Of a DNA stretch of 64,000 nt, positions 5,594 through 63,958 are shown piece after piece. Made by a program: the position numbers and the translations under genes. A model generated the notes under the pieces. The model was not told the origin of the DNA and ran no database searches. It worked only from the letters and a program-made list of their open reading frames with translations. The stretch's first letter is position 1. The number at the start of each line of letters is the position of its first letter. Source of the stretch: Erpobdella octoculata (Eukaryota; Annelida; Clitellata; Hirudinida; Erpobdellidae); contig OZ022244.1 in assembly GCA_963978895.1 (NCBI GenBank), forward strand, positions 22,165,492 through 22,229,491, in the 5' to 3' direction.

Positions 5594-5749
5594 TGTTGTG
5601 ATTAATTGACTTTTATTTGATACAAAACCGTTTAATTAAAGTACAAAGTAGAATACAGAAACATCGGCAACACAGTCTCGGAGAAACTCTCGAGTCAACA
5701 ATGGCCACCAAAAGATACTAAAAAGTCCGAAGATCATTCATTCACAACA
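5594..5749 (-). repeat. 3' LTR of the copia element
   Basis: This copy lies downstream of gag-pol on the minus strand. It has TG...CA ends, and read on the minus strand it contains AAATAAAAG, a likely polyadenylation signal. It is identical to the other copy. Confidence 0.95.
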
Positions 5750-5805: not shown

Positions 5806-8800
5806 TTATGTACACAATCCGAGTCGTCCGCACAGTTCACCAAGCCTGCTTCCAGAAAGAGGTTTGGTGAGAGCATCTGCCAACTGGTCTCCTGAGTCAA
5901 TCTTTTCCACAAGAATCTCCTTGTTCTGGACACATTCACGAATAAAAAAATGGCGTATGCGAATATGCTTTGTTCTTCGATGATACTCTGGATTGTGAGC
6001 CAGCTTTATCGCCGCCTCATTGTCCACATGGATTCTGGGCATGTCTTCAAGCTCTGTGATTTCTGAAAAGAGTCTTTTCAGCCAAATAACCTCACGGGCT
6101 GCTTCACTCGAAGCAACAATTTCAGCTTCTGTTGTCGAAATAGCAACTGAAGCCTGACGTTGACTGAACCATGAAATCACTCCGTCACCATTGCAGCAAA
6201 CCACTCCTGTTGTAGAACGTCCAGATGATAGATCACCACCATGATCTGCATCACTGAAAACTTCTAGTCGATTGATCTTTGATTTTCGTTTGTACCGAAT
6301 TCCATAAGACTTTGTTCTTGCAAGATAACGAAAGATCCTCTTGACTTTCGTAACGTCCTGTTGTGTGGGATTCTCCAAGTTCCGTGACACTACTCCTACG
6401 GCATAGGCTATGTCTGGCCTAGTTCCAACCATAAGATACATCAACGCTCCAACAGCTGACCGATAGGGAAACTTAACTGAACTGTATTCAGCCTTCCCTT
6501 CTTCAGAACTGTCCTTGATTATTGGCGTTTCAACTCCTCTACAACTTGTCATTCCAAAGTGATCAATGATCTTTTTGACATAGTTTTCTTGGCTAACTTT
6601 AATTGATTCACCATCTTGTTGAATCTCAAATCCAAGGAAAAACTTTGCAGGAGAGTCTGTAATTTCAAATTCAGCTTTTAGTTTTTCCAAAAAATCTTCT
6701 GAATCCTTTTTATTTGAACTTGCTAACAAACCATCATCTACGTACATGGCAAGCAATAACTTCTTAGTTCCTTTTCTAAAAATATACAAACATGGATCTG
6801 CTTCGCTAACAGTAAACCCACTCTTTATCAAAAAACTATCCAGTTTTTTATTCCAGCATCTAGGTGCCTGTTTCAAACCATAGAGACTTTTCTTCAGATG
6901 ACAAACTTTATCAGAACCATCTGTGAAACCTTCAGGCTGCTCCATGTAGATTTCTTCTTCCAATTCACCATGCAAAAATGCAGTTGATATATCAAATTGG
7001 GAAAGATATAAATTCTCCTTGGCAGCTACACTGAGTACTGATCGAATTGTTGTCAATTTTGTAACAGGACTAAATGTCTCATCATAATCAACACCTTTTC
7101 TTTGTGAAAAACCTTTAGCAACTAATCTTGCCTTGAAGCGAGAAACTGAACCATCAGCATTATTTTTAACTTTATAAACCCATTTGCACTGTACAGCTTT
7201 CTTGTTCTGAGGCAATTCTGATAGAATCCAAGTGTTATTCTTATGAAGTGATTCTATTTCATTATTCATTGCTGTTATCCATTCTCTTTTGAAGGAGCTT
7301 CTTATTGCCTCATCATAGGTAGCAGGTTCACCTGAATTCAACTGCATCATGCAAACCTCCTCATCAAAATAAGCTGGATCTTTTGACTGACTTCTATCAT
7401 CTCCCTGTTTCTGATTTTGTTCATTATCCTCTGTTGGTTCACCAAACATTTCTTCCTCAGGCAATGGAATCAAATCTGACTGAATGTTATGTTCTACTTC
7501 ACTTGTCGACTCATGAAGAATGACATCTCTTGACAGGAAAACTCGATTATTGCACCATATTCGATAACCGTCATCATTTTCATAACCAATTAAAATACCC
7601 TTGGTTGCCTTTTTGTCAAATTTCTTCCTCAAGCTTTTGTCGATATGAACGTAACATTCACTTCCAATAACCCGTAAATGTTTTAAACCCGGTTTTTTAC
7701 CATTCCAGAGTTCATAAGGTGTTTTCTTTCCTTCGGATGTTGGTCCTGTCCGATTCAGAACATAGACTGCTGTGTTGATCAATTCTGCCCATAAACTTTT
7801 TGGCAAACTTTTTCTTTTACCAAACATCATAGCTCTAGCAGTTTCAACTAAAGTTCTGTTCTCTCGTTCGACAGCCCCATTTTGTTCAGGTGTTCTTGGC
7901 ATTGAGAAGTGTTGTTCAATTCCATGTTCTTTTAGGAATTTTCTTATTTCATCACCACTGTACTCACCACCTCGATCACTTCGTAGAATCTTTACTTTAT
8001 GACCGGTTGTTTGAGTATATCTAATGAAATCTTTCAACTTTTCAACAACTTCTGACTTGTGCTTGATAAAATACACATAACGATACTTTGTGAAATCATC
8101 CTTAAACAATACAAAATATCTCTTCTTGCCAATTGATTCAACCTGAAATGGTCCACAAACGTCAGTGTGAATTATTTCACCAGGTGTATTCGATCGTGGT
8201 CTTGTTCCAAAACTCAGTCTATGTGATTTCCCATAAATGCATCCTTCACATAACTCATCATCATGATCAACATCAATATCTAAATGCTCTTTCAGCATCA
8301 TTCTAACATGTCTTTTATTTTGATGTCCAAACCTTTCATGATATAGCTGTAGAAGTGACTTTTTAGCCTTTTCAATTGCATTTATTTCTTTTGTAGCAAA
8401 ATTAGGAACTTTAACTTTACCCACCAATCTAAATAAACCACCTCCAGCTTCTCTGACACCAGAGACAAGTCGTTTTTCTCCAAGCTTTAAACTGCAAAAA
8501 TTAACATTTGATTCAAACTTGCTCTGTATGTTTTTCTCTTGAGCACTCAGGACAGAAAACAAATTCTTTGAAATACCTGGCACCAACCAGACACCACTCA
8601 AACGAACTGTTTCTCTTCTTTTACCATTGAGTACCTCCAATTCAATGTCTCCTTGACCCAGAGCTTTAAGTTTTTCACTTCCAGCAGTATTAATAAACTG
8701 TGGACTTTCAAACATTTCAAAAGTCTTGAAGTAATCTTTCACAGCAGTAACATGATTTGTTGCACCATTGTCAATGTACCAATTTTCAGAGTTTGTTTCA

Positions 8801-9699
8801 ATTTTATCAACTTTCATGATTTCTGAATTTGTTGCCAACATGGAACTCTTTTCTTCTGACTGCTTTGGATCACTTTTAGCAAATTCTTTTCTTGGTCTTC
8901 CATCAGCTTTCCATTGTCTGCAGTTTCTGAGAAAATGTCCTGGCCTCTGACAATAGAAACAAGTCAACATCCTAGACTTCTTTTTCTCTTTTGCAATGCC
9001 AATTGACTGAGTTGAATCACTTTTACAGACTTCTTTTGTACTAATTGAACACAATTCTTGATTCTCTTCAGTTATTTTCAAAGTCAACTCAAAAGCACAA
9101 AGTTGATTTGTTAAACTATCAACTGTTCTCTGTTCTTCATTGGCCATCAACCAACTTGACTTAAATGGCAAGTACTTCTCATCCAATGTGTCTAAAATTT
9201 TACACATAAGCAAAAAATCAGGCAACACAACCTCATTTTCTTTGGCAGCAACTGAAGTCAGCTCATTCCACAAGGCTTTCATTTTCGAGAGATGACTGGG
9301 CATATCCTCACCAGGTGGCCTTTGATAGTGGAAGAACTGGATGCAGACATTGTATGCCTTGTTCTGGGGAACACCATCATAAAGCAATAACAATTCTTGC
9401 CACATTTTTCTTGCTGTCTTGAACCTCATCACTTTAGACATTGTTTCATCTGTCATTGAGGTTGTCAAGATAAGTTTTGCCATTGAGTCTGCCTTCTGAA
9501 ACCTTCTAAGTGCTGTCTCATATGTTTTTCTGACAGAAGCAACAGTATTTTCTGATTCATCTTCGGGTTCAAGTAGTTTCCCATCCACAACTTCTAAAGC
9601 ATCATCATGGTGTTCCAAAGCTAAACGTATTCTAAAACGCCATTGCTCCCAAGATGCCTGACCTTCTAGTCGCGGAATTGACTGAAAAAGCTTGTCCAT
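5806..9699 (-). CDS. copia gag-pol polyprotein (1297 aa), intact
   Basis: The polyprotein has copia order. The gag region includes a CX2CX4HX4C knuckle (CFYCQRPGHFLRNC, about residue 246). The protease has DNGATNHV (about 308). The integrase has an HHCC zinc site (YHERFGH...CEGC) and a DDE core (HTDVCGPF about 513, SDRGGEY about 572, EQNGAVERE about 612). The reverse transcriptase has KARLVAKGFSQ and MYVDDGLL (YVDD about 988). RNase H has FSDADHGGD, STTEAE and VDNEAAIKL, and the protein ends ADALTKPLSG. Integrase before reverse transcriptase separates copia from gypsy. No stop or frameshift interrupts it. It encodes all the enzymes needed for reverse transcription and integration in virus-like particles. 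It is a single ORF, so Gag excess must be regulated by means not visible here. The start MDKLFQSIPRLEG is the first ATG and resembles copia gag starts. Confidence 0.97.
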   Translation of the reverse strand: MDKLFQSIPRLEGQASWEQWRFRIRLALEHHDDALEVVDGKLLEPEDESENTVASVRKTYETALRRFQKADSMAKLILTTSMTDETMSKVMRFKTARKMWQELLLLYDGVPQNKAYNVCIQFFHYQRPPGEDMPSHLSKMKALWNELTSVAAKENEVVLPDFLLMCKILDTLDEKYLPFKSSWLMANEEQRTVDSLTNQLCAFELTLKITEENQELCSISTKEVCKSDSTQSIGIAKEKKKSRMLTCFYCQRPGHFLRNCRQWKADGRPRKEFAKSDPKQSEEKSSMLATNSEIMKVDKIETNSENWYIDNGATNHVTAVKDYFKTFEMFESPQFINTAGSEKLKALGQGDIELEVLNGKRRETVRLSGVWLVPGISKNLFSVLSAQEKNIQSKFESNVNFCSLKLGEKRLVSGVREAGGGLFRLVGKVKVPNFATKEINAIEKAKKSLLQLYHERFGHQNKRHVRMMLKEHLDIDVDHDDELCEGCIYGKSHRLSFGTRPRSNTPGEIIHTDVCGPFQVESIGKKRYFVLFKDDFTKYRYVYFIKHKSEVVEKLKDFIRYTQTTGHKVKILRSDRGGEYSGDEIRKFLKEHGIEQHFSMPRTPEQNGAVERENRTLVETARAMMFGKRKSLPKSLWAELINTAVYVLNRTGPTSEGKKTPYELWNGKKPGLKHLRVIGSECYVHIDKSLRKKFDKKATKGILIGYENDDGYRIWCNNRVFLSRDVILHESTSEVEHNIQSDLIPLPEEEMFGEPTEDNEQNQKQGDDRSQSKDPAYFDEEVCMMQLNSGEPATYDEAIRSSFKREWITAMNNEIESLHKNNTWILSELPQNKKAVQCKWVYKVKNNADGSVSRFKARLVAKGFSQRKGVDYDETFSPVTKLTTIRSVLSVAAKENLYLSQFDISTAFLHGELEEEIYMEQPEGFTDGSDKVCHLKKSLYGLKQAPRCWNKKLDSFLIKSGFTVSEADPCLYIFRKGTKKLLLAMYVDDGLLASSNKKDSEDFLEKLKAEFEITDSPAKFFLGFEIQQDGESIKVSQENYVKKIIDHFGMTSCRGVETPIIKDSSEEGKAEYSSVKFPYRSAVGALMYLMVGTRPDIAYAVGVVSRNLENPTQQDVTKVKRIFRYLARTKSYGIRYKRKSKINRLEVFSDADHGGDLSSGRSTTGVVCCNGDGVISWFSQRQASVAISTTEAEIVASSEAAREVIWLKRLFSEITELEDMPRIHVDNEAAIKLAHNPEYHRRTKHIRIRHFFIRECVQNKEILVEKIDSGDQLADALTKPLSGSRLGELCGRLGLCT

Positions 9700-9927: not shown

Positions 9928-10083
9928 TGTTGTGATTAATTGACTTTTATTTGATACAAAACCGTTTAATTAAAGTACAAAGTAGAATACAGAAACATCG
10001 GCAACACAGTCTCGGAGAAACTCTCGAGTCAACAATGGCCACCAAAAGATACTAAAAAGTCCGAAGATCATTCATTCACAACA
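9928..10083 (-). repeat. 5' LTR (promoter side) of the copia element
   Basis: This copy is upstream of gag-pol on the minus strand, identical to the copy at 5594-5749, and followed outward by the AAATA target duplication. It is expected to carry the promoter. Confidence 0.95.
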
Positions 10084-53371: not shown

Positions 53372-53421
<50 letters not shown>

Positions 53422-56400
53422 ATCCTACTCGGATTACAGATTGCCATTAGACGACGTAGTAGTTCTGAGTGCGGAGAGTTTAATTAAAATGCGGTTTTCA
53501 CTTTAATATGTTCAGATAGACAAACATAAAAGAATTGATCGAAAAAAAAAATTTTTGAAAGTCAAAATTTTGAATTTTCAGCTTTTGAAAAATTTGCGCG
53601 ATTTTACATTTTTCGAATAATAAGCCGAATTAAAAGCGTTAAAGAGCTGAAATTTTCAGTAACCACTTAAAAAAACGTATTATTTACTATTATTCTAAGT
53701 AAATTTAATTATTTTAATTATATTTTGAGTTTCGTAAAAAAAGGCACTTAGACCACTATACTGAAGCATCTGACACAAAGCTCGAATATGAGTTCTCGAT
53801 ACACTCAAGTTTTTTAATTTACTTTTCTCGAATATCTTTTCAACCGCTTGATAGTTTCTTACCAAATTTCATACAATAAACATATTGCTACTATTTAAAA
53901 TAAATCTGAATTTAAAACTTTGTAGCTCAACGATTAATGCCAAAATAAAGATATTTCATAAACGGTTAGGTCTATATTAGCTTCGTTTCGTAGGTTTTTC
54001 ACGAATAACGCCCAAACCGCTTGAAATATTTCATCCAAACTTTACATGTTAAAACCTTAACTAATTCGTAAAAAAAAGCCAAAAATTTGAGTTTTGAAGG
54101 TCAACGTTTACAGCCATGGTAAAGATATTTAAGTAATGGTTAGCACTCGTGCAATTTTTTGGCTCGATTTTTCGCCAATAAAATTTTAACCAATTAATAT
54201 TTCTCAACCAAATTTGAGGCAGTAATAGAAAGGGTAATTTAAGACAGTTATCTGTAACTGTAGTTTTATAGGTCATCCATTAACTGTTTAATTGATAAAA
54301 ATACTTTTATTCCGTACAGTGAATATCTTTTTTACCAATTGAAGATTTTTAACCATACTTGATATTCGAAAAATGATAGTAATTTTTAATACGTTTCTTT
54401 AGATTATTAAATTTTAACGTTGTAGCTAAACGTTTAATGTTAAATTTAAGCTACAGTATATTTTGTAAAGTGTACGGTTTCAATGAAGCTTTCGGTCCTT
54501 TGTTTTAAGTAAATAAGTTTTAAACAAAAGCGAATTTTTTAACCAAACTTCATAGGATGAAACTTTAGATAATTTTGGACAATTATCTGAATTTATTGTT
54601 TTGTAGCTCAACATTTAACAATATAGGGAATTAAAATGTTAACAAAGGTGATTTCATTGCTTTGCTTCAATAATTTTTAAACTAATTAAAAGTTAGTGAC
54701 CAAATTTTATATTTTTTCAACCTAGCTTTTTCTGAATGAGTATTTAAAGTTTTAACTTTATAATTGCACGACTAGTGCTAAATAAAAACCTTTTCATTTA
54801 AGGTATAATTAATAAATTTTGACAAAAAAAGTTTTTTTTTAGAGAGTTAAGCTATCCATCAAATTAAACTGTTTGTACTTAAAATGATAGATCAATTTTA
54901 TCTATTTAAAGAGATATTAGAAGAAACTCCTGTAAACAATTTTTTTGAAAATTTAAAAATTGTAGCGCGCAAATATCTCACATTTTAAGAATTATGATGG
55001 TTTCCAATAAAATTATGAAAATTAAAAATTAATTAAGATTTCAGAGATACACCCTTCTGTCTATTTATAAACTTTATGGTAATAATGTCGATTTTTGGCT
55101 TCTGATTCGTTATAAAATATCACGTGCTTATATACGTATAATAAGTCAATAGTTGTTTGCGATATAATATATTTAAATATATTTTTATCGGAACAATTGT
55201 TCCGTTAAACTTTAAACCACACTTAAAAGAGTTTTTTAACAAGTTTTAAAGTAAAATTTAAAGAGCAAGTTGTTTTATTGAATTCAATAACATTTTGGTG
55301 TATCAACCCCCCCAGGACCCAGGTACCTGGAAAGATGAGACATGGACTACTAGTCAACTAGACTAGTGACTACTTTGAAAAACTTGAAAAAGACATACAT
55401 AAGGACCTAGTGAACTAGTGACCTAATTTATAGTAGTCTAGTCTAGTGTAGTCCTAAGGACATAAAAGTAAGACTTACATCTTTTATTTAAAAGCATTTG
55501 TGTTTTGTTCACCATTGGTCCAAAATGAGATCTTAATAAAGAAAGTTGATGAAAAGGTGAGAGATTATAAGACAAGAACACTTAAGATTGTTTGTGTCGA
55601 GGATGTCACGGTATATTATGGTGATAAATAATTTATAACTTAATTTAATGATTGTTACTGGTGATTGAAAATGATGAAACTACTTAGACTTAGTAACTGA
55701 TATGATGAATGAGTGATAGAAGACAAACTAAGATTAACTTAATATGATAAGGGAAATAAATAAAATACTATGATTTAAAATAATTTAGATTTATTGTAAA
55801 TTAAAATAATTAGATGATAATGTGTCTTAGACAATTGAATCACAGCAATTTGTGATTGATAACATTTTTGATGAGAATTTAAAGTTATCTTTAGTGGTTC
55901 TGGAATTGAGAAAGAGCAGGTATTATAAGAATTAGTTCAAAAACTTTGTGACAGTTTTATAGTATATTTGCTGAAGTGAAAAAATTGATATTTTACATTA
56001 CCATCTTTTGATTTTTTTTCTTATACTTTTCCCATAATTTTGACAGCATCTTATTCTCACCCGAGTTTCTAGCTTTGAATTTAACCTATGTGCCACAATT
56101 TTCAACTTTTCACAATCTTGCACATACCAGGGAAATAAGTCAAACAATATTGAAATTAAATTATTTCAAAAATGTAAAAACTAACAGTATGTTGAAACAA
56201 AATCTACAAAAGCAACACATGACGCTAAAAAAGGTTTACATGCAAAACTTGAACAAGATGAAAGAAAAAGTAATTTATATGCAATAAAAAAATTAAACAA
56301 CATAAAAAATGTACACAAAGCTTACACGGGAAGCTGAAAGAAAATGAAATGTACAAAAACAATAACACGGGAAGCTGAAAGAAAATAAAATGTACAAAAT

Positions 56401-59400
56401 CGCTTACACGGGAAGCTGAAAGAAATTGAAATGTACAAAATCGCTTACACGGGAAGCTGAAAAAAATTGAAATTTACAAAAGCGCCTACACTGGAAGCTG
56501 AAGGAAAATAAAATGTACAAAATCGCTTACACGGGATGCTGAAAGAAAATAAAATGTACAAAATCGCTTACACGGGAAGCTGAAAAAAATTAAAATGTAC
56601 AAAAAGCTTACACGGGAAGCTGAAGGAAAATGAAATGTACAAAACGATTACACGGAAAGCTGAAAGAAACTGAAATGTACAAAATCGCTTACACGGGAAG
56701 CTGAAAGAAAATAAAATGTACAAAATCGCTTACACGGGAAGCTGAAAAAATTGAAATTTACAAAAGCGCCTACACTGGAAGCTGAAGGAAAATAAAATGT
56801 ACAAAATCGCTTACACGGGAAGCTGAAAGAAAATAAAATGTACAAAATCGCTTACACGGGAAGCTGAAAGAAAATAAAATGTACAAAATCGCTTACACGG
56901 GAAGCTGAAAGAAAAAACTGTACAAAAGCGGTCTTAAAAAAAACTTTTTATTTTTGCTAGGATAGCATAATTTAACTTATCAATATCCTTTTTAATTTTA
57001 ACATTTATACATCTTTTAATAATTAACTCTTGATAAAAGTCTTGATTGTTACTTAAAATATCGCGAAGTTGTTCCAGTGTAGGCGCTTTTTTATTTACAA
57101 TATAGTATTTGAAAAGGGATTTTATACTGTTGCCATGTTCATACTCCCACCGTACCCTCTGGCTGGAGAGTTTGTCTGCAGGCTGGTCTGGAGGGATATC
57201 AGAAGAAGCAGCTAAAGTTTCATGGAAGGGTTCAGTTATTGTGCTAGTTGATGCAGATGTTTTTTTATTATATGCATATCTAGCTTCTTCCAAGAACAAA
57301 TTGGCAGCCCCCTTTTTAGACTGAACAGAATAATGTATTTCAGCAGTTTTGCTTGAGTGCTGCATGTGTTTCGCTGCCATGTATCGGCTGTTGGGATTGT
57401 TTGCAGCAATTTCAGAGGCCATGAATCTTCTTATGGTATTACAAGAAACATCATGAGGAAAACCGAGGGAGTTATAGCACTTTGTCAGGATTATTCTAAT
57501 GAGTGATGATGTAATTTGTTTGCCTGAGGATGTGATGAATATGTATGTTGTGTCTATGTTAATATTTTTTAAATGCTTGTTTCTTATTTTTAAATAATAA
57601 TTGAATAAGTTAAAAAGTTGGGGTTCGAAAATTATGGTTGCGCCTCCGTAAACTCCCGCAGTTTTGTGTTTATCAATTAAAAATGTTGCACAATCTGAAT
57701 CATCATTTATATCAACAAGATGTTCTAGGGTGAAGTTTGTGAGAACGCACGGGCGTGGAGCGTTACAAGCGGTTAATGAGATAATAAAGTGATTTCGTAA
57801 ACTAAGCATAATATTATTTAAAGTATCTTTATCATAACTGTTAATTAAACTATTGGGAAATGTTTTATAGAGTTGTAAGATATCATGACTTTTCGTGTAT
57901 GCAGAATAAAATTTAGTGGTGAGTCTGTCTCTATATCTACGACCCTCTAACTCTGCACGATGACGGGAACCCTCCTTGTGGACCGTCTTTATCCAGTTAG
58001 GTATTACATGAATCCAATTAGAAAAATTTAATTCATTACTTATTTCGGGGTGTTTATACAATATATACTTTACAAATTGTCGAAAGGAATACAGATAGGT
58101 TGCTATCGATGAAGGTTTAACTTGTCGGACTCCTCGACCATTTACTATAACTAATTTACATTTAAGAAACAAAGGATTAAAATACTTCTCTTCTACATTT
58201 TCAATATTTAATTTATCTAAAGACGATCCACAAGCGTCAACTATTGTTTTACAGTGTTTAACTATTCTATGGGAACCAAGTTTGTTGCCCCCCCCCCGCC
58301 GATGCCAAATAGTTAGAAAAATTAAAAAACATTTTTTTATCTATAATTAATTTTTTGCTAGGGCCAGTTATTTTTAAAACATTGTCATGATTAGGGTGCA
58401 GAGTTAGAGGGTTGCATGCATTTATTTCAGTTACATCCGGATTATTGTAAATAGTTTCGGGATGAAAAAGTTTAACGTGCATGTCCATTCTTATAACATT
58501 TACATTACAAAATTTACACGTTTTCCTATCCTTTTTAATACCAGTCTTCCGTCTTTTATAGTCGGCTGCGGAAGTTACCAGAGCAATAGGATTTTCTATA
58601 TTGTGTTTCTTGCTGCGCAAGTGAGGAGGCAACTTGGAAACAAATTTGTGGCACAGCGGACACTCAAATTTTTTTCGTTGTTTTACCTGTAAAAATAATT
58701 ATGATTGATGAGAGTCTATATATTATGTTTGTCACAGGTAAATATTCAGTTTTGGCTTATTGTTGTAATATTGGTGGTTTTGCCATATATAATAAATTTT
58801 GATGCAGTTGACAACTTCTTTATAACAATTTTTATTAATTGCAGTCTAGCCATAAAACATACAAAAATAAATTAGCTCACCGATGGCAAAGATGTCAACT
58901 CTGAATTTGGAACGAGAGAGCTAAAAGTTTTAAGTAAATGCTTTATTTAAGATTTTTAAGCTCAACACTTTTAAATAGTGAACGGTAATTACTTGTCAAC
59001 TGAAGTGAAGTAAACCGAAGCAGCTTCTTGGCCAATACGAGCAGGCAAAACCTGGCGCATTGGAACGAAAGAGCTGAAAGTGTTAAGTAAATGCTTTAAT
59101 TAGGATTTCAAATTATATAACGATTAAGCTCAACACTTTTAAAAGGTGAACTGTAATTACTTGTCGACAGAAGCCAAATGAATGGAAGGAGCTTGTTGGC
59201 CAATACGAGCAGGCAAAACCTGGCGCATTGGAACGAAAGAGCTGAAAGTGTTAAGTAAATGCTTTAATTAGGATTTTAAATTATATAACGATTAAGCTCA
59301 ACACTTTTAAAAGGTGAACTGTAATTACTTGTCGACAGAAGCCAAATGAATGGAAGGAGCTTGTTGGCCAATACGAGGAGGCAAAACCTGGCGCATTGGA

Positions 59401-62400
59401 ACGAAAGAGCTGAAAGTGTTAAGTAAATGCTTTAATTAGGATTTTAAATTATATAACGATTAAGCTCAACACTTTTAAAAGGTGAACTGTAATTACTTGT
59501 CGACAGAAGCCAAATGAATGGAAGGAGCTTGTTGGCCAATACGAGCAGGCAAAACCTGGCGCATTGGAACGAAAGAGCTGAAAGTGTTAAGTAAATGCTT
59601 TAATTAGGATTTTAAATTATATAACGATTAAGCTCAACACTTTTAAAAGGTGAACTGTAATTACTTGTCGACAGAAGCCAAATGAACGGAAGGAGCTTGT
59701 TGGCCAAGACGAGCAGGCAAAACTTGCGGAATTTGCACGAAAGAGCTGAAAGTGTTAAGTAAATGCTTTAATTAGGATTTTATTTTAAATAACGATTGAG
59801 CTCAACACTTTTAAAAGGTGAACTGTAATTACTTGTCGACAGAAGCCAAATGAACGGAAGGAGCTTGTTGGCCAAGACGAGCAGGCAAAACTTGCGGAAT
59901 TTGCACGAAAGAGCTGAAAGTGTTAAGTAAATGCTTTAATTAGGATTTTATTTTAAATAACGATTGAGCTCAACACTTTTAAAAGGTGAACTGTAATTAC
60001 TTGTCGACAGAAGCCAAATGAACGGAAGGAGCTTGTTGGCCAAGACGAGCAGGCAAAACTTGCGGAATTTGCACGAAAGAGCTGAAAGTGTTAAGTAAAT
60101 GCTTTAATTAGGATTTTAAATTATATAACGATTAAGCTCAACACTTTTAAAAGGTGAACAGTAATTACTTGTCAACTGAAGTGAAGTAAACCGAAGCAGC
60201 TTCCTGGCCAAAACGAGGAGGCAAAACTTGCGGAATTTGCACGAAAGAGCTGAAAGTGTTAAGTAAATGCTTTAATTAGGATTTTATTTTAAATAACGAT
60301 TGAGCTCAACACTTTTAAAAGGTGAACATTAATTACTTGTTCACTAAAGCGAAGAAAGGCAAATCATGTTCCTGTCCAAAACGTGCGGTCAAAACCTGGC
60401 GCATTGGAGCGAAAGAGCTAAAGTGTTAAGTAAATGCTTTAATTAGGATTTTAAATTAAATAATTAGTAAGTTCAAGACTTTTAAAAGGCGAACGGTAAT
60501 TACTTGTCAACAGAAACCAAAGGAGCTTGCTGGCCAAAACGAGCAGGCAAAACCTTGCGCATTGGAACGAAAGAGCTGAAAGTTTTAAGCAAATGCTTTA
60601 ATTAGGATTTTAAATAAAATAACAATTAAGGTCAACACTTTTAAGAGGTGAACTGTAATTACTTGTCAACAGAAGCCAATTGAGCCGAAACATGCTGGCC
60701 AAGACGTTGAGGCAAAACTTGGCGATTAGGCATGAGCGAACTGAAAGTGTTAAGTTATATCTATCAATTTTTTTAAATTTTTTTTCAAACAGTCAAGCCG
60801 CTGTTATCTATCATTTGTAGGTCCATTAAATTCAACCAGAGTTAGCCGTTTTTCCAGGCGCCCACATCACTTTAGGTGTTGATAAACTCATTAGGACTCA
60901 AACTGCCAACCTTCAGGTTTACAGACGAACGCCTTACCATCATACCACCAGCCTTGGCGAAAAAAATTGAAAATAGTAATTACTCTGTGACATCAGCGTC
61001 TTCTGAAGGTGACTTCAATATGTTGGGCTTGTCTACCAGACCACTGGAGAGTATTGCGCTCTCTGAAGCAAGGTGGACTACCTAAAAAAGTTTCACTTTA
61101 AAATAAGTTTCAAAACACATACAACGCCGGAACAATATGTCATTTTGTTATGAGTTCAAAATTTTTGTTTGAATTAAGGGAAAGTTGCCTGAGATAAGAC
61201 GATTTTTAGACAACTCAACTATATAATAGAAACGTAACAAAAAAAGCGCTGTACAAAAAGTCTACCTCTTATAATTAGTTGCATGACTTTGAATTAATAT
61301 GTAAATAAAGTATATAATATAAATAAATATATGAAGACATAAACGCAGCCATAGATTCTGTTACCAAGGAAACCATGGTAGTATATTTCTTAGAGAAAAA
61401 TGTTAGAAGTTAAAGGTGTAATTACCAGCGGTAGAGACAAATTTTTTGCTAAAAATTTATGTTTAAATCATAAATAAATTGAAATTAATTGAATTTTAGA
61501 TTTCATTTATAAATTTTTAACGGGCGCCATCGGCGTCCAAGAACAGCCCAACATTAAGTTTAAAATACTTACCTCTATCACTTCACTTTCCAAAATTTCA
61601 CTCAAGAACGTACGAGACATTATTTCTAACAAACTGAAAATCTAACAGAAAATTTGTCAAGCTAAAATGACTAAAGGCGGGCTTTGAGAATGCGGGAATG
61701 TGGTAAGTTAAGTTAAATATGCGAGATGTGCATGACCTCACCACACAAAACTAATTATTATAAATTTAATAATTTGGGCGTCTTGATGTTTCATTCTTCT
61801 AAGTGTTTTATAGGTAAACGTTCATTTTAACCCAAGAAACAGGAAAGTGGTGAAAAAGGCCAGTATTAATTATTTCAATCCCGGCGAAAGATATAAGATG
61901 ACATGTATGCTACATTTTTCATCTGCAAGTTAAGCAAGGCCAAGGTGAGGGCTGCACCAAAGTTCTTAGGGATACAAATATGCTCACAGTAAATCTTACG
62001 TTTGAAGATTTCAGTATTTCCCCTTGGAAACAAAATTGAAGCAATTTATTGTAAAAAAAACCTAGTTCAGAATGTCTGAAAATGAATTTTTAAACCTTTA
62101 TCGGAAAGATTATGGCTACGTATATAGATAATTAAATCCAAAAACATAGGAGAAACTACACGGAAATTATTTTCTTTATAAATATCTTTTTTCAATAGAT
62201 TTATTTTTTTTGTTTTATTTAAAAACTAATTTGGACAAGCGAACTCGTTTAATTAAGCGCGCATCAAAACCAGGAAATGCCAATAGTTCGTCTCAAAGCA
62301 AAAACGGCGTCTCAAAGCAAAAACGGCGTCTCAAGGCAGAAAAACGGCGTCTCACGGCAACTATTCGGCGTCTCAAGGCACGTTGCTTTTAAACGAGGCA

Positions 62401-62438
62401 ACTAACAGCTAAAAACGGCGTCTCAAGGCAGGGTAGAA

Positions 62439-62483
<45 letters not shown>

Positions 62484-62884
62484 TATTATTATTATTAAAT
62501 TGAAAGCTTTGTGGTTCGGGCCGTTAGAATAGAACCACCGTGTATCCTCCTATGCGTGTCGTAAAAGGCGACTAAAGGGAGGTATGCAGGAAGGGCATCC
62601 GGGTAAAACTTTGCTCCAAATTCCATATGGGCAACAAAACAAAGAATTTCATGCCGGCTCGGACGTCGCCCGGTCAAACAAGGTCCGCGCTTTCTTTTCT
62701 GGGCCTAGACAGAAGTGAAAAGTTAGCTATGGGCTTGAAGAAGAATTTATGAGCTCGGACTGAAGTGACAGTCTGCCCTGGATCGTGACTTGTGGAGGGG
62801 CCTGATATGGAAAAAACGTCCAACCCTAGCATAGCGTGGAATAGGGATGTTTCAAGAATAAATGATGATGATGATTATTATTAA

Positions 62885-63044: not shown

Positions 63045-63958
63045 GTATTGTATATTATATTATAGGTAATTTGTTAAAAATGATTGAAAATGCTGACCTA
63101 CGCACTTACATACATAGAGATGCTCATGCAGACATAAAGAATTGTTAGGATAGATGTTGTAAGTTTAATAATGATTCTTTTTTTTTGAAATTATTCAAGA
63201 ATGAGGATGGGCTTTGTGACTGGACCGAAAGCTCTTGTCAATCAAATCGTTCTCCACCTCATGGTTTCCTCAATGCACGTCCCTACTTTTTCTCAGGTAT
63301 TTATTTCAATGAAAAATATTTAATCTTTTGTTATTTTTATAAATTGAACCGTTGTTGTTTTATATTTACTTCTTTCTTATAAGGTGTTCATTTATTTATT
63401 GAAAAAAATATTTTGAAGCAATAATTTAATTTTAATCTGATCAGGTGTTAGTCAATGAATTGATGAAGGTAACTGGAGAATTTGAAAGTCATATCATCAG
63501 GTTTGAATTATATTTTAAATATGATTAGTCTCTCGTTGCTGTTGAGAGCAATAATTAATTTTTTTGCTCGTTCTTGGTACTTGTTTATTATGTTCTATCT
63601 CGTTTCATGTATTGCAGAATCTCTGACTTTTATAAAGCACAAAGAGAAATGGCAGAAAGATTAGCAAATAAATGGCTATCAGGTAACAAGTGCACAATTA
63701 TATAATTTTTTACTGTTTTCTTGGAGTTTTTATTGATCAACATCTCACTTTTAAGCCACATATTCAACACTTAATTAACAATATTCTGTTTTACTGCTAA
63801 TGTATTGTAGTTAATTTGTTTGTTGTATATTCGTGTCAGGATTGGCGGAATGGAATTCTCCTGAAGCAGGCATTTCTTTGTGGTTAAAAGTGAAAAACTG
63901 CTCGGATTCGAAGAATTTTGTTAATGAATTGCAACAGGAAAATGTTGTTGTTAATTAA
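51669..63958 (+). CDS. KAT2/AADAT-like aminotransferase, PLP lysine lost, at least 12 exons
   Basis: Exons: 51669-51735, 51843-51942, 52052-52120, 52206-52338, 52417-52491, 52854-53036, 53120-53185, 53281-53363, 63200-63296, 63445-63500, 63618-63682, 63840-63958. All phases agree (1113 nt, 370 aa plus stop). Homology to kynurenine/2-aminoadipate aminotransferase (fold-type I, PLP) runs throughout: MNYSKFLNSI...KPSPIR, LAGGNPNP, ALQYDASPG, PGDKVLVEEP, TPKFLYTCPNG, LEHDPFYFLQY, LSLDVDGRV, MRMGFVTGPKAL, DFYKAQ, LAEWNSPEAG. The cofactor site is degraded: the PLP lysine of SFSK is Met254 (SFSM, ATG at 53347), the Asn of the NPxG motif is Ile193, and the PLP-stacking Tyr is Asn142. The Asp and Tyr of DPxY and the Arg after MSPG are kept. 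The reading stops about 55 residues before the family's C-terminus, which carries a substrate-binding Arg; a further exon may lie beyond the window. It is probably a pseudoenzyme or an early pseudogene. Confidence 0.88.
53377..53421 (+). repeat. (ATT)n microsatellite at the start of KAT2-like intron 8
   Basis: About 14 ATT units, 14 bp after the splice donor of exon 8. Confidence 0.9.
53590..54960 (+). repeat. Diverged tandem repeat, period about 170 bp
   Basis: A motif like TTGTAGCTCAACGATTAATG recurs in diverged form near 53921, 54097, 54421, 54601 and 54763. Each is followed by sequence like AAAGATATTT and preceded by CCAAATTTCAT-like stretches. There is no coding potential. It is probably an old satellite or several degraded interspersed repeats. 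Confidence 0.4.
56315..56935 (-). repeat. 41-bp tandem array (15 units) of splice-acceptor-like sequence
   Basis: ACGGGAAGCTGAAAG-type cores occur at about 56326, 56367, 56408, 56449, 56489, 56531, 56572, 56612, 56652, 56693, 56734, 56774, 56815, 56856 and 56897. Read on the minus strand each unit is TTTTATTTTCTTTCAG then CTTCCCGTGTAAGC: a pyrimidine tract with CAG, eight bases, and a donor-like GTAAGC. The array starts within about 15 bp of the stop codon of the recombinase gene and so lies in its 3' UTR or downstream flank. Confidence 0.9.
56934..61620 (-). CDS. Crypton-like tyrosine recombinase with tandem exon-array N-terminus
   Basis: My model (minus strand): exon 1 61620-61573 (MSRTFLSEILESEVIE); exon 2 61081-60984; exons 3-13 the tandem array (60740-58993); exon 14 58920-58881; exon 15 58686-56934. 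Phases agree across exons 1-15. The array encodes repeated ~27-residue modules (core QVLPARxGQQAPS, ending SVD). Exon 15 starts with two C2H2-like fingers, CX2CX9HX5H (CPLCHKFVSKLPPHL...) and CX2CX9HX4H (CKFCNVNVIRMDMHV...). A core-binding region and a tyrosine recombinase domain follow. In the ORF 58172-56934 the catalytic candidates are R140 (NAPRPC), K170 (DKHK), R248 (CNTIRR; the usual His of HxxR is Asn245), H272 (MQHSS) and nucleophile Y281 (EIHYSV). The family cuts and rejoins DNA through this Tyr. One lesion: at a poly-G run (plus-strand C run near 58287-58297) the frame changes, and exon 15 is one base over a multiple of three. It lies antisense in KAT2-like intron 8. Confidence 0.78.
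58993..60740 (-). repeat. Tandem exon array: 11 exons, 168-bp period for the inner copies
   Basis: Candidate exons (minus strand): 60740-60663, 60575-60504, 60417-60337, 60249-60169, 60081-60001, 59913-59833, 59745-59665, 59577-59497, 59409-59329, 59241-59161, 59073-58993. Lengths are 78, 72 and then nine times 81 nt, so all differences are multiples of three. Each has a TTTCAG or TTTAG acceptor and a GTAATTA donor, and each is open in the same phase. Inner copies are nearly identical (the last eight are exactly 168 bp apart); the outer three are diverged but still open. Two sequence classes occur, SFVPMRQVLPARIGQQ and SFVQIPQVLPARLGQQ. The ending QEAASVYFTSVD is shared by the fourth and eleventh exons, a sign of block duplication or conversion. 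Confidence 0.85.
60843..60965 (-). mobile_element. tRNA-derived SINE head, reversed
   Basis: On the minus strand GCTGGTGGTATGATGGTAAG carries an A box and GGCAGTTTGAGTCC is a B box. It resembles the head of the SINE at 50078. It sits in intron 2 of the recombinase gene. Confidence 0.6.
62290..62440 (+). repeat. Minisatellite, unit about 20-22 bp (AAAACGGCGTCTCAAGGCAG)
   Basis: About six units of ACGGCGTCTCAAGGCA with variants. Confidence 0.8.
62440..62495 (+). repeat. (ATT)n microsatellite, left of LINE tail
   Basis: About 18 ATT units with one break. Confidence 0.9.
62500..62870 (+). mobile_element. Probable LINE 3' end (RTE-like or related) with trinucleotide tail
   Basis: GGAAGGGCATCCGGGTAAAA, then AACTTTGCTCCAAATTCCAT, then ACTTGTGGAGGGGCCTGATA and AATAAATGATGATGATG resemble the 3' untranslated ends of RTE-type LINEs in invertebrates, which end in ATG/ATT trinucleotides. 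No coding part remains. A SINE that borrowed the same tail is an alternative. Confidence 0.5.
62862..63048 (+). repeat. (ATG)/(ATT)/(ATC) trinucleotide tail
   Basis: ATT units with an internal TCA block at 62935-62980. It ends about 150 bp before exon 9 of the KAT2-like gene. Confidence 0.9.

Follow-up and report, generated by a model that had tools for sequence, protein, structure and literature searches.

A predicted array of in-phase exons in the tyrosine recombinase gene of a probable (AAT)n-resident transposon in Erpobdella octoculata

Why should a tyrosine recombinase (YR) gene carry, ahead of its catalytic part, a row of copies of one small exon, and what kind of element does such a gene serve? 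The question is raised by a stretch of 64,000 nucleotides from Erpobdella octoculata (GenBank assembly GCA_963978895.1, contig OZ022244.1, positions 22,165,492 to 22,229,491; hereafter the window), in which an earlier annotation made from the sequence alone (the original prediction) placed a YR gene built on eleven duplicated exons. The array probably forms the predicted N-terminal part of the sole recognisable gene in a 9-kb YR DNA transposon that lives within (AAT)n microsatellites. The larger finding, which goes beyond the original prediction, is that the window holds one copy of an (AAT)n transposon family whose sister families carry parallel exon duplications. Transposase genes are usually regarded as encoding fixed proteins; here, near-identical copies, with about 1% or fewer substitutions outside arrays, should encode proteins differing by one to five modules. 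Coordinates are window positions, and features lie on the minus strand unless stated otherwise.

Eleven tandem exons in one phase

The array comprises eleven tandem units between 60740 and 58993, which Tandem Repeats Finder (TRF) reports over 58956-60755 as a 168-bp period in 10.8 copies. Each unit contains one predicted exon: the first is 78 nt long (60663..60740) and the second 72 nt (60504..60575), and they are followed by nine of 81 nt, at 60337..60417, 60169..60249, 60001..60081, 59833..59913, 59665..59745, 59497..59577, 59329..59409, 59161..59241 and 58993..59073. As predicted exons they are symmetric, stand in tandem order and share phase 2-2; in all eleven the acceptor is TTTCAG or TTTAG, the donor is GTAATTA and the frame is open, much as the original prediction had described them. 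The introns measure 87, 86, eight times 87 and finally 72 nt.

Upstream of the array lie a start exon (exon 1, 61573..61620), which encodes MSRTFLSEILESEVIE in 16 codons and ends in phase 0 at the donor GAG/GTAAGT, and exon 2 (60984..61081; 98 nt, phase 0 to 2, donor GTAATTA), which encodes VVHLASESAIL... and begins in a similar way to the module amplified in family B and to exon 2 of family C, both described below. Exons 1 and 2 are identical in three other copies of the element (loci L009, L010 and L011), and their adjoining introns carry only 0-4 substitutions, too few for a test of constraint. Downstream, a short twelfth exon (58881..58920; 40 nt, phase 2 to 0, donor GTGAGC) leads to the last exon (56934..58686), which carries two zinc-finger-like motifs and the tyrosine recombinase and has its frame broken at a run of G near 58290. 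All predicted joins, from exon 1 through the array to the zinc-finger/YR exon, are in phase. This part of the original prediction stands; its single recombinase exon does not hold for the window copy, in which the G run divides the frame. In some copies elsewhere in the genome the last exon is one open frame, and in L009 and L010 the joined predicted exons give 328 + 583 = 911 amino acids free of stops.

The last exon encodes a tyrosine recombinase

The assignment of the gene to the tyrosine recombinases is borne out by a match of the window frame to NCBIfam XerA_Arch (2.8e-6), together with profile and fold matches obtained mostly on relatives from the same genome. Pfam lists no YR family for the window pieces; Phage_integrase matches four of the six relatives scanned, one of them above the cut-off. 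A profile of eight sequences matches the PDB integrase 3nkh (0.0015); an integrase family of PHROGs, matched by one of eight members, was set aside. The structure predicted for the intact last exon of L009, with a mean predicted local distance difference test score (pLDDT) of 66.6, matches XerA, XerH, Cre and lambda integrase, and in a second comparison the match spans residues 113-459 of the model. Its zinc-finger region is poorly modelled, a version predicted without an alignment (pLDDT 34.9) was not used, and we claim structural matches for YRs and topoisomerases IB only.

In our alignment of the family (A1), the catalytic residues, assigned by eye against what we take to be the XerD pattern, occupy the expected positions in most rows: the Arg of NAPRP, the Lys of HKTA, the Arg of xxxR, the His and the Tyr. 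The His of HxxR is replaced by Asn in six of the seven rows that cover it and by Thr in L022, which lacks several catalytic residues. The CxxC...H...H pattern, also read by eye, is present for the first zinc-finger-like motif in 4 of 8 rows and for the second in 6 of 8, two of the rows being pieces of L026. In Pfam scans of the window pieces and six relatives, no zinc-finger family reaches its cut-off, and no Crypton-type family (DUF3504/Crypton-type YR, GCR1_C) appears, the power of that profile on animal Cryptons being unverified. Searches of viral contigs with the window and L021 recombinases, and of genome contigs with that of L017, gave no confirmed relative outside the species' own genome. 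The original prediction had also entertained a DNA-recognition role for the repeated module; the zinc-finger-like motifs and the recombinase are the evident DNA-binding parts of this protein.

The gene lies in a mobile element bordered by (AAT)n

By comparison of copies, the element begins with GATTCTACCCTGCC... at 62440 and ends with ...GAGTAGGATTA at 53420. The resulting family A element (53420..62440) measures 9021 bp in the window and 8849, 8852 and 8236 bp in three other copies, end motifs and lengths having been compared among the window, L009, L010 and L011. It is flanked by (AAT)n microsatellites, at 62441..62497 on the 5' side and 53377..53419 on the 3' side. All seven family A copies with the 5' end motif in hand (window, L009-L013 and L015) have such a tract ahead of that end, and all six with the 3' end motif (window, L009-L012 and L015; the tract of L012 is imperfect) have one after it. 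Loci L014, L016, L025 and L028 were left out of these counts, since neither end falls within the stretch examined. For family B, whose (AAT)n context is known from the 5' side alone, L017, L018 and L020 show the junction itself, and in L019 an (AAT)n tract occupies the corresponding position. Locus L015 further contains a head-to-tail junction, 3' end-(AAT)6-5' end, which is what the junction of an excised circle would look like.

In family A the element carries a YR only, shows no long terminal inverted repeat and is bordered by direct repeats, the (AAT)n tracts. Beyond the two frames of the YR gene, the open reading frame lists hold no frame of at least 120 aa in 53420-62440, and none of a length that would suit a reverse transcriptase; none of the 25 longest of 130 inverted pairs of at least 14 nt forms a long terminal inverted repeat at the element ends. 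By eye, 8 of 11 places agree between the opening bases of the 5' end (ATTCTACCCTG) and the reverse complement of the 3' end (ATCCTACTCGG), and this short, imperfect inverted match could reflect the arms of a YR core site on either side of the (AAT)n. Near the 5' end, TRF finds 4.6 copies of 19-21-bp repeats resembling TGCCTTGAGACGCCGTTTTT (62289..62380), which are also present in L009, L010, L011, L013 and L015. Past the stop codon it finds a 41-bp minisatellite of 15.3 copies (56306..56927), with TTTCAG and GTGTAAG in most units. By analogy with lambda integrase, we would guess that the two sets of repeats are arm-type binding sites for the zinc fingers.

The 41-bp minisatellite has features of its own. 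Most units combine an acceptor-like TTTCTTTCAG with the donor-like GTGTAAG, as if they formed a row of 6-8-nt micro-exons, and related loci carry from about 7 to 58 copies (58.3 in L013). A 22-nt stretch within the recombinase frame (57072-57093) is 95% complementary to variant units at 56475-56496 and 56759-56780.

Unit number differs between near-identical copies

The genome assembly (386 Mb in 94 contigs) contains at least 95 matches to the 468-aa frame of the window, and 20 loci were examined. The array has 11 units in the window, 10 in L009, 10 in L010, 6 in L011 and 6 in L014, one of those in L014 lacking the acceptor AG. A changing copy number, as originally proposed, is thus seen even among near-identical copies (11, 10, 10 and 6 units). 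Over 7.9 kb the identity between L009 and L010 is 99.94%. With the two arrays set aside, each feature of the window shows 0-2 substitutions relative to L009 and a difference of no more than 1.03% from L011, where gaps bring the identity of intron 2 down to 96.4%; for the 3' region, 1306 of 2886 bases entered this comparison. Change is fast in the 41-bp array too, which is 95.1% identical between the window and L009. Among the copies compared, the first units and the last full unit of the exon array hold their positions and the middle units turn over.

Two groups of derivatives were encountered. L012, L013 and L015 share a nearly identical recombinase segment in inverted orientation and have lost most of the array (about 59195 to 61348); they presumably represent an internally inverted, non-autonomous subfamily that multiplied. 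In addition, two genome searches each gave roughly 40 places with short, near-identical matches to the N-terminal part of the recombinase frame and to a single module, probably an abundant non-autonomous derivative family.

Sister families duplicated other exons

Family B (L017-L020) has recombinases 44-46% identical to that of L009 (two aligned) and 46-47% identical to that of the window. Its arrays consist of 333-bp tandem units, in 6, 5, 6 and 4 copies, each with a 51-nt exon of phase 0-0; the encoded modules read VLHISEVATVSCSEVVP in 4 of 21 and GLHIS... in 17 of 21. In three of the four loci the array is followed by small exons of 30 and 63 nt. The family B module begins like exon 2 of family A, so the exon amplified here is not the one amplified in family A. 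In family C (L021), exon 1 and exon 2 (VVHVSDG...; donor GTTTTA by eye, which is unusual) are followed by exons of 69, 126 and 63 nt, all of phase 2-2 with GTAATT donors. The 63-nt exon and its intron together repeat the beginning of the last exon over 153 bp (98.4%), again in phase. A crude search recognised no such array in L022, L023 or L026.

Three of the family B copies also contain, 3' of the recombinase, a frame that resembles by eye the C-terminal part of a hAT transposase (L017 8798-9439, L019 8974-9621 and L020 8898-9539), either carried along by the element or belonging to a nested hAT.

Divergence among the modules and alternative readings of the array

Exons diverging less than the introns between them had been expected, and the opposite was found: within the window array, the mean pairwise difference is 0.174 for exons and 0.068 for introns. 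Between units 4 and 8, 19 of 81 sites differ in the exon and 7 of 174 in the flanking introns (Fisher p 6e-6), and 11 of 15 unit pairs reach p < 0.05, although these pairs were preselected for divergent exons and similar introns and are not independent. Two N-half types (VQIPQ and VPMRQ) and two C-half types (EAASVYFTSVD and QAPS[VI]HLASVD) occur in all four combinations, which places the exchange within exons. Diversifying selection on the modules, for instance in a contest with a host factor, while gene conversion keeps the introns alike, would fit the divergence and the recombined halves; we nevertheless consider it quite unlikely, as the pairwise rate ratios lie at 0.32-0.98 wherever silent changes exist and the modules of family B are nearly identical. 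Because silent sites are raised at least as much as replacement sites, the pattern suggests old exon lineages rather than an excess of replacement, and we read it as such lineages probably shuffled by exchange, in a module under weak constraint. We do not regard the excess divergence of exons as refuting coding, since homogenised introns and mosaic exons both confound this test. The diverged copies do stay open, as had been noted, in 15 of 15 distinct variants from six loci. We rejected open frames as proof of coding: only 2.3-3.4% of single changes create a stop in the three variants tried, so that openness is weak evidence.

The array might instead be a non-coding minisatellite 5' of the gene, its resemblance to exons accidental and translation starting downstream. 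A single unit is only moderately surprising in this respect, because 52 of 3000 shuffles of unit 5 and 37 of 3000 shuffles of unit 1 (168 bp) pass the exon test, as do 9 of 1258 168-mers from both strands of window positions 1-53000; the lack of third-position bias and the greater divergence of exons point the same way. Against it stand the in-phase joins from the start exon to the zinc-finger exon and a relic array, L039, in which all four acceptors have lost their AG and one of three exons has a stop, with three donors kept (donors were required by the search pattern); decay without selection would give this outcome. Chance, weighed by the shuffles, and a non-coding array are rejected mainly because families A, B and C duplicated different exons, each time in phase, and we regard this explanation as very improbable. 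A splicing switch, in which symmetric exons with weak donors are variably skipped to yield many tail lengths, as in schistosome micro-exon genes, is unlikely. It would draw on the common phase, by which any subset of exons keeps the frame, and on the array donors (CAA/GTAATT), which depart at -1 and +5 from what we take to be the consensus, whereas those of exon 1 (GTAAGT) and the twelfth exon (GTGAGC) come close to it. However, the units are near-identical, with no obvious regulatory difference, and genomic copy number already alters the length.

Several observations weigh against our own reading, that of a spliced, coding array in a mobile YR element. The last exon of the window consists of two overlapping frames (58698-58267 and 58340-56934) that meet at the G run; L011 has an open tail of 220 aa and a stop in its last exon; in L019 the array is fused in frame to the middle of the zinc-finger exon. 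To the array donors just described may be added the lack of any credible intronless copy among 90 genome matches to the joined modules, the one longer stop-free match, of 71 aa, standing at E 3.4 and 27% identity. Across 12 module variants, variation affects 13 of the 27 columns at the first codon position, 15 at the second and 16 at the third, with no third-position excess, and the exon divergence goes against simple purifying selection on the module, whose constraint is either weak or mixed with diversification and mosaicism. A single relic array, L039, was read as a control. Circle excision and integration by the YR, for their part, are suggested by the sequence of the junctions.

With these points included, our best reading of the sequences is a candidate microsatellite-targeting YR element with an exon-array N-terminal tail of fast-changing copy number. 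The spliced gene would encode the start peptide, the exon-2 peptide, a number of modules of about 27 residues, two zinc fingers and the YR core. The recombinase would cut and rejoin at (AAT)n, and an excised circle with an (AAT)n junction could then recombine with chromosomal (AAT)n. With a single phase throughout an array, units may be gained or lost through unequal exchange or slippage and the frame stays unbroken; tail length accordingly varies more quickly from copy to copy than other parts of the element do. In our view the tail is a tolerated and perhaps useful interaction region of low constraint, not part of the catalytic machinery. A disordered tail is not supported by the charge-hydropathy of three stretches: the tail is low in charge, and the stretches tried fall on the folded side (for family C, exons 1-2 only).

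A bolder proposal, which we hold to be highly doubtful, is that this lineage of microsatellite-targeting YR transposons has more than once converted its N-terminal exons into arrays able to expand, which would set the valency and length of a host-interaction tail. A core of hydrophobic-hydrophobic-His/Asp-hydrophobic-Ser/acidic residues (VVHLASE, VLHISE, VVHVSD, MLDVTSEE) is shared by exon 2 of family A, exon 2 of family C and, within family B, the first amplified exon and the last small one; we presume that it could be a SUMO- or chromatin-binding motif, in which case unit number would tune transposition. We lowered an already small estimate because GLHIS, not VLHIS, begins the 17 predominant modules of family B and the array module of family A keeps the core in part. 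The copies nonetheless offer a natural length series, of 4-6 units in family B and 6-11 in family A, for asking whether a non-catalytic tail affects recombinase activity. They also bear on the birth and upkeep of tandem exon arrays, given that sister families duplicated different exons, and their insertion sites, being set in (AAT)n, are readily located and tested.

Other features of the window

Intron 2 contains a stretch (60770..60955) that resembles by eye a short interspersed element (SINE), with motifs like what we take to be tRNA boxes A and B; ARAGORN and Rfam list nothing for it. Beside the element, 62500-62860 is a dispersed repeat between AAT/ATG microsatellite tracts, which is also found in L026 and L027. 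On the plus strand, 63220-63700 holds exons of a kynurenine/alpha-aminoadipate aminotransferase (AADAT)-like gene (PDB match 1.6e-13); a search of that strand of the window with motifs we presume typical gave no further AADAT exons. At 5806-9699 lies an open 1297-aa gag-pol frame of copia type, flanked by identical 156-bp direct repeats (5594-5749 and 9928-10083), presumably the long terminal repeats of a recent insertion.

Comparison with known systems

With the DIRS, Ngaro and VIPER retrotransposons the element shares a tyrosine recombinase, but it is without a reverse transcriptase frame. Cryptons are described in passages of PMC3212892 as YR-only DNA transposons without terminal inverted repeats, for which a circle intermediate has been proposed and, in fungi, direct repeats are the presumed recombination sites. 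The plan of the animal CryptonA and CryptonI, a YR only and no terminal inverted repeats, is the same here. In contrast to those passages, the present element has two N-terminal zinc-finger-like motifs, a multi-exon gene with an exon array and an (AAT)n setting, and its proteins list no Crypton-type Pfam family; the word "microsatellite" does not occur in the text of PMC3212892. The original prediction called the protein Crypton-like; we have not filed the element as a Crypton, although it may be one.

Repeated amplification of an exon has a precedent in a host gene, Piccolo. According to parts of PMC3484663, its zinc-finger exon was amplified in tandem in several teleost lineages, zebrafish having 15 exons and percomorphs 8-10 repeats, and unequal crossover is proposed as the route. 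Those exons, of 702-1350 bp, belong to a host gene, whereas the exons of 51-81 nt described here belong to a transposon gene. Schistosome micro-exon genes likewise have many short exons (3-81 bp), but, as far as the sections of PMC10526429 at hand describe them, they encode secreted proteins, have long introns and include no recombinase. A literature search by title and start of abstract, with Repbase and most subscription papers outside its coverage, gave no exon-array transposon and no YR element at microsatellites beyond the nimavirus paper.

That paper (PMC10871703) describes, in the passages at hand, endogenous nimaviruses (majaniviruses and relatives) whose YRs carry a C2H2 zinc-binding domain and which are inserted into (TAACC)n microsatellites. 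Its reads suggest concatemers or episomes joined via the repeat tract, and related viruses specific to 28S rDNA have multi-exon YR genes. The two systems differ in that nimaviruses have large DNA genomes of many genes, whereas here a 9-kb element has one recognisable gene, and those passages mention no exon array. They are alike in combining a YR with zinc fingers, or here zinc-finger-like motifs, in insertion at a microsatellite, albeit a different one ((TAACC)n there, (AAT)n here), and in a suggested joining through the repeat tract. Likened by description and not by sequence, the zinc-finger YRs of nimaviruses are, on the evidence of those passages, the nearest published match to this element in mode of action.

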